This document shows positions 5,916 through 64,000 of a DNA stretch of 64,000 nt, in pieces (the stretch's first letter is position 1; every line of letters begins with the position of its first letter). A program made the translations under genes and the position numbers. The notes under the pieces were generated by a model. That model ran no database searches. It saw nothing but the letters and a program-made list of their open reading frames with translations, and was not told the origin of the DNA. Location: NCBI RefSeq assembly GCF_010977555.1, contig NZ_CP048815.1, positions 5,572,501 to 5,636,500 of the forward strand, read 5' to 3'. The stretch comes from Caulobacter rhizosphaerae (GTDB lineage Bacteria > Pseudomonadota > Alphaproteobacteria > Caulobacterales > Caulobacteraceae).

Positions 5916-7109
5916 ATGGTTCGTTCCCCACAGATCGCCTCGTCCGAAGTCCTGGCCGCCCGCGCCGTCGACATCCTCGCCACCCTGGTGGCCTTCGACA
6001 CCACCTCGCGCCTGTCCAACCTGGCCCTGGTCGAGTGGGTCGAGGCCTATCTGGCCGATCTTGGCGTCGCCTCGCGGCGCGTGCCCAACGCCGACGGGAC
6101 CAAGAGCAACCTGCTGGCCAGCATCGGTCCGGCGATCCCGGGCGGCGTCGTGCTGTCGGGCCACACCGACGTGGTGCCGGTCGACGGCCAGCCCTGGACC
6201 AGCGATCCGTTCGTCCTGACCCCGCGCGACGGCCGGCTCTACGGCCGCGGGACCTGCGACATGAAGGGCTTCCTGGCCCTGGCTCTCGCCGCCGCGCCGG
6301 ACCTGGCCAAGGCCGCCCTCGACCGCCCCGTCCACCTGGCCTTCTCCTATGACGAGGAGGTCGGCTGCCTGGGCGCGCCGGACATGATCGCGGTGATCGC
6401 CGACGAACTGCCTCGTCCGGCCCTGGTGGTGGTCGGCGAGCCCACCGACATGGTCGCCGTGCGCGGCCACAAGGGCATCGCCAGCTTCCGCGTCACGGTC
6501 ACCGGCCGCGAGGCCCATTCCAGCCTGACCCACCTGGGGGTCTCGGCCAACATGGTCGCCATCAAGCTGATGAACCATCTGGTCGAGCTGTCCGAGCGAC
6601 TGGAGCGCGAGGCCGACCCCGCCTCGCCGTTCACCCCAAAGGGCGCGACCCTGACCGTCGGCCAGGTCAACGGCGGCACCGCGGTCAACATCCTGGCCCG
6701 GGAGTGCGTGTTCATCTTCGACCTGCGGGTTCCCGCCGGCCTGGAGCCCCGGGAAATCCTGGCCGACTTCTTCGCCCTGGCCGACCAGATGGACGCCCAG
6801 GTCAAGGCCAAGGCCCCCGAAGGCGGCGTGGTGGTCGAGACCCGCTCGATGACCCCCGCCTTCGCCCCCGAGGTCGATGGGGCGGCCGAGACCTTCGCCC
6901 GTCGCATCGCTGGCGACAATGGTCCGCCGCGCGTCGTGCCCTACGCCGCCGAGGCCGGCCAGTTCCAGGGCGCTGGATTTTCGACGGTGATCTGCGGCCC
7001 CGGCTCGATCGACCAGGCCCACCAGCCCGATGAATATGTCGAAATCAGCCAGATGGAACGGGGCGCGGCCTTCATGCGGCGACTGATCGAGGAGCTTTCC
7101 CAGGCTTGA
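5916..7109 (+). CDS. argE: Acetylornithine deacetylase
   Basis: This is an M20-family zinc amidohydrolase that removes the acetyl group from N-acetylornithine in arginine synthesis. The 397-residue protein has metal ligands and catalytic residues at H83 and D85 (SGHTDVVPVDG), D115 (GRGTCDMKGFL) and E147/E148 (AFSYDEEVGCLGAPDMI). GEPTDMVAVRGHKGI follows, then the dimerisation domain, then the C-terminal DQAHQPDEYVEISQ with the last His ligand. The size matches ArgE and the KGI/SSL context favours ArgE over DapE, although M20 enzymes can be hard to separate. Its last 38 bases overlap the end of the convergent glycosyltransferase gene. Confidence 0.85.
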   Translation: MVRSPQIASSEVLAARAVDILATLVAFDTTSRLSNLALVEWVEAYLADLGVASRRVPNADGTKSNLLASIGPAIPGGVVLSGHTDVVPVDGQPWTSDPFVLTPRDGRLYGRGTCDMKGFLALALAAAPDLAKAALDRPVHLAFSYDEEVGCLGAPDMIAVIADELPRPALVVVGEPTDMVAVRGHKGIASFRVTVTGREAHSSLTHLGVSANMVAIKLMNHLVELSERLEREADPASPFTPKGATLTVGQVNGGTAVNILARECVFIFDLRVPAGLEPREILADFFALADQMDAQVKAKAPEGGVVVETRSMTPAFAPEVDGAAETFARRIAGDNGPPRVVPYAAEAGQFQGAGFSTVICGPGSIDQAHQPDEYVEISQMERGAAFMRRLIEELSQA

Positions 7110-20995: not shown

Positions 20996-22444
20996 TTACT
21001 CCGCCGCGATCAGCGCCGCGGCGCCGGTCTTGGTCATCAGGTAGCGGTGCATGGCGTCGGCGGCGTCGCGGCCGTCCTTGATCGCCCAGACCACCAGCGA
21101 GGCGCCGCGCACGATGTCGCCGGCCGCGAACACGCCGTCCAGATTGGTCATCTGGTGGCGGACGTCGGCCTTGACCGTGCCCCAGCGGGTGGTCTTCAGG
21201 TCCGGCGCCGACCACAGCTGCGGCAGGTTCTCGGGCTCGAAGCCCAGGGCCTTGACCACCAGCTGGGCCGGACGGTCGAAGTCGCCGCCGTCGATCTCTT
21301 CCGGAGTCTGGCGGCCCGAGGCGTCCGGGGCGCCCAGGCGCATGCGGATGGCGCGCACGCCGGTCACGGCCTCGGCGTCGCCCTGCAGGGCGCGCGGGGC
21401 CGCCAGCCACTCGAAGGTCACGCCCTCTTCCTCGGCGTTGGCCACTTCGCGGAGCGAGCCGGGCATGTTGGCCTTGTCGCGGCGATAGAGGCAGGTGACC
21501 GAGGTCGCGCCCTGGCGGATGGCGGTGCGCACGCAGTCCATGGCGGTGTCGCCGCCGCCGACCACCACGACGTCCTTGCCCTCGGCGTTCAGCTCGCCGC
21601 TGTCATAGGCGGGAACCTCGTCGCCCAGCGTCTTGCGGTTGGAGGCGATCAGGTAGTCCAGGGCCGGCACGACGCCCTGCGAGCCCGAGCCCGGGGCGGT
21701 CAGGTCGCGCGCGGCGTAGACGCCCACGGCGATCAGCACCGCGTCGTGCTGGTCACGCAGCTGCTGCAGGGTGGCGTCGCGGCCGACCTCGAAGCCCAGC
21801 TTGAACACCACGCCGCCATCGGCCAGGCGCTGGGTGCGGCGCTCGACCACTTCCTTTTCCAGCTTGAAGCCGGGAATGCCGTAGATCAGCAGTCCGCCGG
21901 CTCGGTCGTGGCGGTCGTAGACGGTGACGGCGTAGCCTTCCTCGCGCAGCCGTTCGGCGGCCGACAGGCCGGCCGGACCGGCGCCGATGACGGCGACCGA
22001 CTGGCCGCGATCGGCCTTGGCGACCAGCGGCTTGACCCAGCCCATCTCCCAGGCCTTGTCGGTCAGGTAGCGCTCGACCGAACCGATGGTCACGGTGCCG
22101 TGGCCCGACTGCTCGATGACGCAGTTGCCTTCGCACAGGCGGTCCTGGGGGCAGATTCTGCCGCAGACTTCCGGCATCGAACTGGTGGCCTGCGACAGCT
22201 CGTAGGCTTCCTGGATCCGGCCCTCGGCGGTCATCCGCAGCCAGTCGGGGATGTTGTTGTGCAGCGGGCAGTGGGTCTGGCAGAACGGCACGCCGCATTG
22301 CGAGCAACGCGAGGCCTGCTCGGTGGCTTTCGCGTCGATGAAGTCGGCGTAGATCTCGTGGAAGTCGCCATTGCGCTCGCTCGCCGCCCGCTTTTCGGGC
22401 GTCTTGCGGGCTACGGTCGTGAATTTCAGCATGCGCTCGGCCAT
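20996..22444 (-). CDS. gltD: Glutamate synthase (NADPH) small subunit
   Basis: Passes electrons from NADPH to the large subunit through FAD and iron-sulfur centres. The 482-residue protein has N-terminal cysteine clusters CSQCGVPFCQTHCPLHNNIP and CGRICPQDRLCEGNCV, the FAD-binding GAGPAGLSAAERLREEG and the NADPH-binding VVVGGGDTAMDCVRTA. The C-terminal FAD motif GVFAAGDIVRGASLVVWAI is complete. It is first in the gltD-gltB operon. A 450-bp intergenic region upstream must hold the promoter, but no convincing sigma-54 (GG-N10-GC) site was seen there. Confidence 0.96.
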   Translation of the reverse strand: MAERMLKFTTVARKTPEKRAASERNGDFHEIYADFIDAKATEQASRCSQCGVPFCQTHCPLHNNIPDWLRMTAEGRIQEAYELSQATSSMPEVCGRICPQDRLCEGNCVIEQSGHGTVTIGSVERYLTDKAWEMGWVKPLVAKADRGQSVAVIGAGPAGLSAAERLREEGYAVTVYDRHDRAGGLLIYGIPGFKLEKEVVERRTQRLADGGVVFKLGFEVGRDATLQQLRDQHDAVLIAVGVYAARDLTAPGSGSQGVVPALDYLIASNRKTLGDEVPAYDSGELNAEGKDVVVVGGGDTAMDCVRTAIRQGATSVTCLYRRDKANMPGSLREVANAEEEGVTFEWLAAPRALQGDAEAVTGVRAIRMRLGAPDASGRQTPEEIDGGDFDRPAQLVVKALGFEPENLPQLWSAPDLKTTRWGTVKADVRHQMTNLDGVFAAGDIVRGASLVVWAIKDGRDAADAMHRYLMTKTGAAALIAAE

Positions 22445-26698: not shown

Positions 26699-26785
<87 letters not shown>

Positions 26786-46640: not shown

Positions 46641-46774
46641 CCTCCCCCTGTGGGGGAGGCGTCGGCGAAGCCGACGGAGGGGGGAGTGATCGGCCGATGG
46701 CCCGCTCTACGATCGCCGATCCTAAAACTCCCCCCACCGATCGCTGCGCGATCGCCTCCCCCACAGGGGGAGGG
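46641..46774. repeat. REP-B palindromic repeat pair
   Basis: The left arm CCTCCCCCTGTGGGGGAGG plus a GTCGGC-GAA-GCCGAC stem is mirrored by CCGATCGCTGCGCGATCG and CCTCCCCCACAGGGGGAGG on the right. It lies about 110 bp upstream of the histidine kinase start. Confidence 0.85.
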
Positions 46775-63326: not shown

Positions 63327-63457
63327 CCCTCTCCCCTTGGGGGAGGTGTCGGCGCAGCCGACGGAGGGGGGGAGTTGTCGGATCGTCGATCCCTGAGCCG
63401 CCCTCGCAACACTCCCCCCACCGATCGCTTCGCGATCGCCTCCCCCACAGGGGGAGG
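63327..63457. repeat. REP-B palindromic repeat pair
   Basis: The left arm CCCTCTCCCCTTGGGGGAGG plus GTCGGC-GCA-GCCGAC, and the right arm with CCGATCGCTTCGCGATCG and CCTCCCCCACAGGGGGAGG. It begins 5 bp after the DUF1223 gene stop codon. Confidence 0.85.
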
Positions 63458-63472
63458 ATCGCGCCCCCATAA

Positions 63473-63510
63473 TGAAAGGCCCGCGCGGGGAGGGGACACC
63501 GCGCGGGCCT
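63473..63510 (-). terminator. Intrinsic terminator of sRNA-like unit 1 (minus strand)
   Basis: A perfect 12-bp stem (63477-63488 with 63499-63510; AGGCCCGCGCGG/CCGCGCGGGCCT), a 10-base loop that reads TGTCCCCTCC on the minus strand, and TTTCAT after the stem. Confidence 0.75.
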
Positions 63511-63683
63511 CTTAGGGGGAGGGGAATATCTAGACCGTCGGCCGACCGGAGCCCGGGTCGGGGGCTGGGGGGCAATCAGGGTCCGAGCCGGGACGTCCGA
63601 TCAGCCGACAATGATCTTATGGCGGGCCAAGCCGGCGCTCGAAGGGCGTGATCAAGGTCGTTTCGCGGCGGTTCGTGTCCGCC
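63473..63683 (-). ncRNA. Candidate small RNA, tandem unit 1
   Basis: A noncoding unit of about 211 bp, read on the minus strand and ending in the terminator at 63473-63510. It shares collinear blocks with unit 2: GTCGGCCGACCGG at 63537, a 13-base C-run block (GGGGGCTGGGGGG on plus) at 63560, the identical 16-mer GTCCGATCAGCCGACA at 63595, and the 5' block around 63656-63683. No open frame has coding character. The 5' end and promoter are not defined. Confidence 0.5.
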
Positions 63684-63730
63684 ATGTGTCGCCCGCCTGC
63701 ATCGGCGGCCAGGCCGTGTGACGCGCACGC

Positions 63731-63766
63731 GAAAACCCCGCGTGGAGAGGGGCGCCACGCGGGGTT
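63731..63766 (-). terminator. Intrinsic terminator of sRNA-like unit 2 (minus strand)
   Basis: A perfect 12-bp stem (63734-63745 with 63755-63766; AACCCCGCGTGG/CCACGCGGGGTT), a 9-base loop reading CGCCCCTCT on the minus strand, and TTTTC after the stem. Confidence 0.8.
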
Positions 63767-63936
63767 CTGAGCGGGTAGTGCAGAGAGTTGTCTGTCGGCC
63801 GATCGGCCCACGATCAAGGGGGCTGGGGGGGCTGTTCAGGATCCTGAACCGCAGGATGTCCGATCAGCCGACAGCCTCAAGATGGAGAGCCAAGCGGGCG
63901 GCGGCGGGTCCAAATTAAGGTCATTTCGTGTCCGCC
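63731..63936 (-). ncRNA. Candidate small RNA, tandem unit 2
   Basis: A unit of about 206 bp collinear with unit 1: GTCGGCCGATCGG at 63794, the 13-base block at 63828, the 16-mer at 63858 and the 5' block at 63919-63936. The distances between terminator and first block, and between 16-mer and 5' block, are conserved (27/28 and 46/46 bases). On the minus strand TTGATAATG near 63950-63958 could be a -10 region. The stem sequences of the two terminators differ but keep pairing, which argues for selection on RNA structure. Confidence 0.55.
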
Positions 63937-64000
63937 GGAGCCGGGCCGGACATTATCAAGCGCGACTGTAGCGTGGCCGCAACGCTGGCGAGGGGCGTGC

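Follow-up and report, generated by a model that had tools for sequence, protein, structure and literature searches.

A tandem sibling of the CC3664 small RNA gene in Caulobacter rhizosphaerae, with a shared C-rich loop and a phased upstream element

The analyzed window is a stretch of 64,000 nucleotides of Caulobacter rhizosphaerae DNA (NZ_CP048815.1, positions 5,572,501 to 5,636,500). At its right end, two homologous units, A and B, lie head to tail on the minus strand (Table 1). A DUF1223 gene (PF06764) and an aconitase gene lie to the left of the units, and both units converge on the end of the DUF1223 gene. Past the right edge of the window, a DUF2794 gene (PF10984; L003 4048-4374) is divergent from A and is followed by a Bax1-I gene. 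The terminator hairpin of A is followed by TTTT, and that of B by TTT. Intergenic sequence next to B (63339-63446) holds a composite palindromic repeat (GTCGGCTTCGCCGACACCTCCCCC and GGGGGAGGCGATCGCGAAGCGATCGG), which recurs at 46652-46762 and to the right of the window (L003, about 6415-6555). Elsewhere in the window, ARAGORN lists a tRNA-Leu(AAG) on the minus strand at 21959-22052; the Rfam tRNA model at its cut-off lists only the tRNA at 26699. The ARAGORN hit is possibly a false or degenerate tRNA.

Table 1. Positions of the parts of units A and B in the window.
Feature	Position	Strand	Basis
sRNA gene A, CC3664 family	63735..63872	-	RF01530 109.7 bits; model R1 121.9 bits
sRNA gene B, diverged tandem paralogue of A	63478..63609	-	RF01530 53.9 bits (below cut-off); R1 87.7 bits (B is among the R1 training sequences)
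Promoter element of A, CGAAATGACCTTAATTTGG, at about -56 to -38 if the RNA starts at 63872	63910..63928	-	Genome search and spacing in relatives
Promoter element of B, left half retained, CGAAACGACCTTGATCACG	63647..63665	-	Alignment
-10-like stretch of A, weak match by eye	63873..63884	-	Inferred from alignment position
-10-like stretch of B, CATAAGATCATT, by eye better than that of A	63610..63621	-	Inferred
27-nt loop region of A, GGATCCTGAACAGCCCCCCCAGCCCCC	63818..63844	-	Exact match in at least 120 stretches
Loop region of B, GGACCCTGATTGCCCCCCAGCCCCC	63560..63584	-	
Intrinsic terminator of A	63732..63765	-	Pairs covary among relatives
Intrinsic terminator of B	63475..63509	-	Pairs covary among B copies

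Four blocks are identical in A and B: a 12-mer (GGCGGACACGAA), a 16-mer (TGTCGGCTGATCGGAC), a 13-mer (CCCCCCAGCCCCC), and a 9-mer (TCGGCCGAC). Local alignment of the two units scored 87, whereas none of 300 dinucleotide shuffles scored above 32. A common word of at least 16 nt occurred in none of 500 shuffles, and one of at least 13 nt in a single shuffle out of 500. The two tandem minus-strand units with four collinear blocks, as outlined in a preliminary description made from the sequence alone, are therefore present. The block spacings given there (27/28 and 46/46) were not reproduced, as we measured 27 versus 22 nt from the 16-mer to the 13-mer, and 15 versus 14 nt from the 13-mer to the 9-mer. 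Both units end, as described, in perfect terminator hairpins with C-rich loops. The two terminator stems had been said to differ completely while keeping their pairing; only 3 of 11 positions differ, but each of these is compensated on the other arm. C-richness is also not confined to the terminator loops, as had been implied, because conserved C-rich sequence lies in the first hairpin and its apical loop as well.

Unit A matched the Rfam model of the CC3664 sRNA (RF01530) over its full length (1-136) and above the cut-off of 60 bits. Unit B also matched the full length of this model (1-136; E 9.7e-8), but its score was below the cut-off, and B is therefore termed a diverged paralogue and not a curated member. 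We also used a broader model, R1, which was built from 38 sequences (A and B of the window and 36 type-A relatives). The match of B to R1 (E 9.7e-17) includes B's own contribution to the training set. Copies of B from other genomes, which were outside this set, mostly scored 52.8-95.8 bits, with L117 at 39.8 and L133 at 109.5 bits. A and B are thus almost certainly CC3664-family sRNA genes. The expectation of a duplicated sRNA family with C-rich loops was correct, but the family proved to be a known one, with A as Rfam CC3664 and B as its diverged paralogue. What is new is B, a recurrent tandem sibling that the Rfam model rates low or misses. Further copies had been considered possible beyond the right edge; none was found there or elsewhere in the genome, which holds only two RF01530 matches and, beyond the two strong R1 matches, a next-best R1 hit of 26.4 bits (E 0.01). 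The 6C RNA model (RF01066) reached 31.8 bits over the terminator of B, below its cut-off of 47, and was rejected.

Both units folded far better than their shuffled versions (z -5.83 and -6.95). In the alignment of 38 sequences, 96.6% of the cells paired, compared to 89.3% after shuffling, and both-sided changes were observed in 17 of 33 pairs, compared to 8.8; none of 500 shuffles reached any of five covariation measures, where the structures were derived from the same alignments and the shuffles ignore relatedness. When the partner was slid by 1 to 3 columns, pairing fell to 35-48%. The same tests, read in the same way, were applied to 25 copies of B. Here, 96.5% of the cells paired (83.9% shuffled), both-sided changes occurred in 14 of 22 pairs (8.3 shuffled), and four of the covariation measures were reached by 0/500 shuffles and one by 1/500. 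While the stems change, the sequence CUG..GCCCC(Y)CC.AGCC was kept in all 25 copies. Its C-tract is carried by an apical CUG..CAG hairpin, which is constant against the changing stems, and was mostly unpaired in single-sequence folds (mean P 0.54-0.88). In two clades, that of the window and the vibrioides-like one, the B copies have a changed 5' half of the loop region and keep the C-rich half. Covariation and folding together show the same architecture for each RNA: a long stem is topped by a small apical hairpin, whose loop is C-rich, and a linker then leads to the intrinsic terminator.

The preliminary description had made its reading depend on covarying stems and on conservation outside this strain. 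The stems covary, and the 26-mer of the loop (up to 2 mismatches) was found in 36 of 41 genomes of the same family, compared to 0 of 159 genomes of the order's other families. The covariance-model search of relatives that it had proposed gave RF01530 matches (E ≤0.001) in 109 of the 149 Caulobacteraceae genomes sampled, 49 of which scored above the cut-off. Across 289 class-wide genomes, RF01530 matched only this genome; as the search missed G002, a same-family genome with the exact loop core, it is weak evidence of absence. The exact 27-mer occurred in at least 120 stretches of genome contigs, and the 80 titles listed for it were all of Brevundimonas, Phenylobacterium, Caulobacter, Peiella, or metagenome-assembled genomes (MAGs). 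The exact core defined 142 distinct loci, of which 122 lie near at least one of five neighbors from the window, and 20 near none. The DUF2794 gene was present at 117 of the 142 loci, always on the opposite strand (117/117), and might be functionally tied to the sRNA. Some of the 20 loci without these neighbors look like dispersed extra copies. By eye, hairpins with the same loop but without the usual neighbors or an obvious terminator nearby were seen at L090, L097, L099, L102, L110, L118, and L137, together with a similar upstream GAAATGG..CCGGAC-like element. The automatic terminator finder was crude and missed the terminator of A in the window, so its counts were set aside.

The frequency of the tandem sibling depended on the model used. 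At the 19 top-scoring Caulobacter loci, the Rfam model detected a second tandem copy at 11 and none at 8 (E 0.05), whereas R1 detected it at all 19. This indicates that the Rfam model is too narrow. Because these 19 loci were the best-scoring ones, a fairer figure is given by 40 evenly drawn Caulobacter genomes, where R1 matched 39: 24 had a tandem pair, 9 had dispersed extras only (at only 32-34 bits in 3 of these 9), and 6 had a single match. Among 99 loci searched with R1, a tandem copy was found in 36, of which 35 carry a Caulobacter name or genus handle and one is an alphaproteobacterial MAG. The 63 loci without it comprised 9 from Caulobacter and 54 others (in 50 of these 54, the sequence extends 500 nt or more past the core on its downstream side), and no tandem pair was seen in Brevundimonas or Phenylobacterium at these 99 loci. 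The tandem pair is therefore common, but not universal, in Caulobacter. A test of a single origin of B gave a p-AU of 0.35, on a tree of 19 A and 11 Rfam-found B sequences with two long branches. At G618:C10:11437-12426, three consecutive R1 matches share one strand and may be a triplet of siblings.

Upstream of the RNAs lies a 20-bp element (GAAANGRCCYYDDTYYGGNC), partly palindromic with the consensus CGAAAT-N6-ATTTCG, at about -56 to -37. A search of 25 Caulobacter genomes gave 17 matches in 16 genomes and none in the remaining 9, compared to 2 matches for a reversed control pattern in the same genomes. For all 17 matches, the distance to the start of the R1 match that follows is exactly 27 nt; this R1 match is A or a sole copy in 14 cases and B in 3. 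Because the pattern derives from this family's own sites, recovering them was expected; the result lies in the lack of other matches and in the one constant spacing. With a stricter consensus (up to 3 mismatches), 26 genomes yielded 19 matches, of which 18 precede the RNA and 1 lies elsewhere. The element of A has 2 mismatches to the 19-bp consensus and is the sole match in its own genome at up to 3 mismatches. We know of no protein that binds this element. Its fixed phasing suggests that it may be an activator site or an unusual promoter recognition site. Since B in the window lacks half of the element and A has the weaker -10-like stretch, A and B are probably expressed under partly different conditions in this strain.

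Complement-pattern searches found no conserved complementary target. The exact complement of the common C-rich 13-mer (CCCCCCAGCCCCC) occurs at one genome site outside the sRNAs (L033 1501-1513; G000:C1:140428-140440), on the sense strand of an open coding frame. This third site is probably due to chance, and its coding frame reads like uroporphyrinogen-III synthase. A 19-nt complement with 3 mismatches matched 15 other genome sites, compared to 7 for the control, and in 13 genomes, most matches to the 13-mer complement were the sRNA itself.

We propose, with a probability of roughly 0.7, that A and B are separately promoted and terminated sibling trans-acting sRNAs, whose C-rich loop would meet G-rich mRNA leaders and which would have a dedicated regulator. 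A would be the usual copy of the family, and B a paralogue just downstream that recurs across much of Caulobacter. Transcription would be driven by the putative regulator at the 20-bp element. The rigid stem would then present the C-rich loop for pairing with G-rich leader or Shine-Dalgarno regions of target mRNAs, and A and B may have overlapping targets under separate control. The base-pairing step, taken by analogy with known sRNAs, is somewhat favored over other modes of action, although a pairing seed would not require an invariant loop region of this length. A more elaborate model, which we consider tentative at best, is a switch between sibling sRNAs. In this model, a private transcription factor with these sRNA promoters as its main or only sites would set the levels of A and B differently, the fixed loop would engage a single partner, either an RNA or a protein, that is deeply conserved in Caulobacteraceae, and B, overlooked in Rfam, would occur in the C. 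crescentus group as well.

The lack of a conserved target and the long fixed loop leave room for a protein partner. The RNAs could act mainly via one conserved protein that is titrated or recruited by the invariant loop, with the tandem copies raising the dose. The 27-nt region, kept exactly while the stems change, would fit this, as it exceeds the usual need of a seed. Still, the B copies of two clades altered the 5' half of the loop and kept its C-rich half, which fits a pairing tract better, and no candidate protein is known; we therefore regard this explanation as unlikely. Less probable still is that one sibling, instead of regulating mRNAs directly, acts on other RNAs as a sponge or timing device, in the manner of CrfA on SisA-D. 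sRNA-sRNA pairing and sponging have been demonstrated for CrfA and SisA in C. crescentus (PMC12559287), but the C-richness of both A and B precludes mutual pairing through the C-tract, and no G-rich partner RNA was identified here. It is very hard to credit that the two stretches lack any RNA function and merely provide terminators and palindromes in the intergenic space that separates the convergent DUF1223 gene from what lies to the right: the units do face the end of that gene and an unrelated palindromic repeat does adjoin B, but the covarying first stem, the fixed loop, the element at constant spacing, and the curated family match of A all argue against it.

A and B were compared with the closest known systems. 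Compared to CC3664 (RF01530), A is alike in fold, loop, and terminator, whereas B has the loop GGACCCTGATTG in place of GGATCCTGAACAG, and the tandem pairing is not in the Rfam model. Sigma-T promoters have the consensus GGAAC..CGTT. Using this consensus with a spacer of 14-19, no sigma-T-like site was found on the minus strand of 63465-64000, and membership in GsrN, which has a sigma-T promoter, was rejected. In the same interval and strand, the single-stranded 10-nt core of alpha-R8 (SisA-D, MmgR), UUUCCUCCCU, is absent (best match with 3 mismatches), and this family was also rejected. The usual, though not universal, linkage of alpha-R8 copies to an N-formylglutamate amidohydrolase gene was not encountered either, as the neighbors of A and B are DUF2794, DUF1223, and aconitase, but SisB-D also lack this linkage, so that it excludes little by itself.

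GsrN (CCNA_R0081) is the general stress sRNA of C. crescentus, where six cytosines of a C-rich loop pair with the G-rich katG leader, as tested by mutations of the C-loop and the leader and by their compensation (PMC5869019). According to the same paper, GsrN is confined to Caulobacteraceae by BLASTn, and its C-loop is the most conserved part (PMC5869019). A and B resemble GsrN in their C-rich loop, which is the basis of the pairing mode proposed by analogy. SisA-D are described as sibling sRNAs with a common pyrimidine-rich anti-Shine-Dalgarno tract and separate promoters (PMC12559287). A and B are likewise siblings with a common tract and separate promoters, but whereas the SisA-D promoters have no common motif, those of A and B share one. 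OmrA and OmrB of E. coli are tandem sibling sRNAs with a common pairing region, again according to PMC12559287. They are unrelated to A and B in sequence and host, and their common region is located at the 5' end and not in an apical loop.

A search of the literature under the name CC3664 returned one unrelated paper only, and none on the function of CC3664 or on a tandem sibling; a description under an unlinked CCNA_R number is possible. The original survey linked to CC3664 is reportedly that of Landt et al. 2008. The NA1000 positions of CCNA_R0090 and R0199 are near 3.88 Mb and at 3.99 Mb, respectively. CCNA_03774 is a citrate lyase beta chain, and an ORF that reads as CitE-like lies ~6 kb from A and B in C. 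rhizosphaerae. From these positions, R0091, R0092, or R0194-R0198 are possible tags for CC3664. Cell-cycle variation of 23-fold has been reported for CCNA_R0092, and enrichment with Hfq for CCNA_R0195.

CC3664 thus gains a recurrent tandem sibling, a loop that is fixed across Caulobacteraceae, and a promoter element with hardly any matches outside CC3664-type genes in the genomes searched. With these three features at hand, the targets and the regulator of the sRNAs can be sought directly in laboratory Caulobacter.
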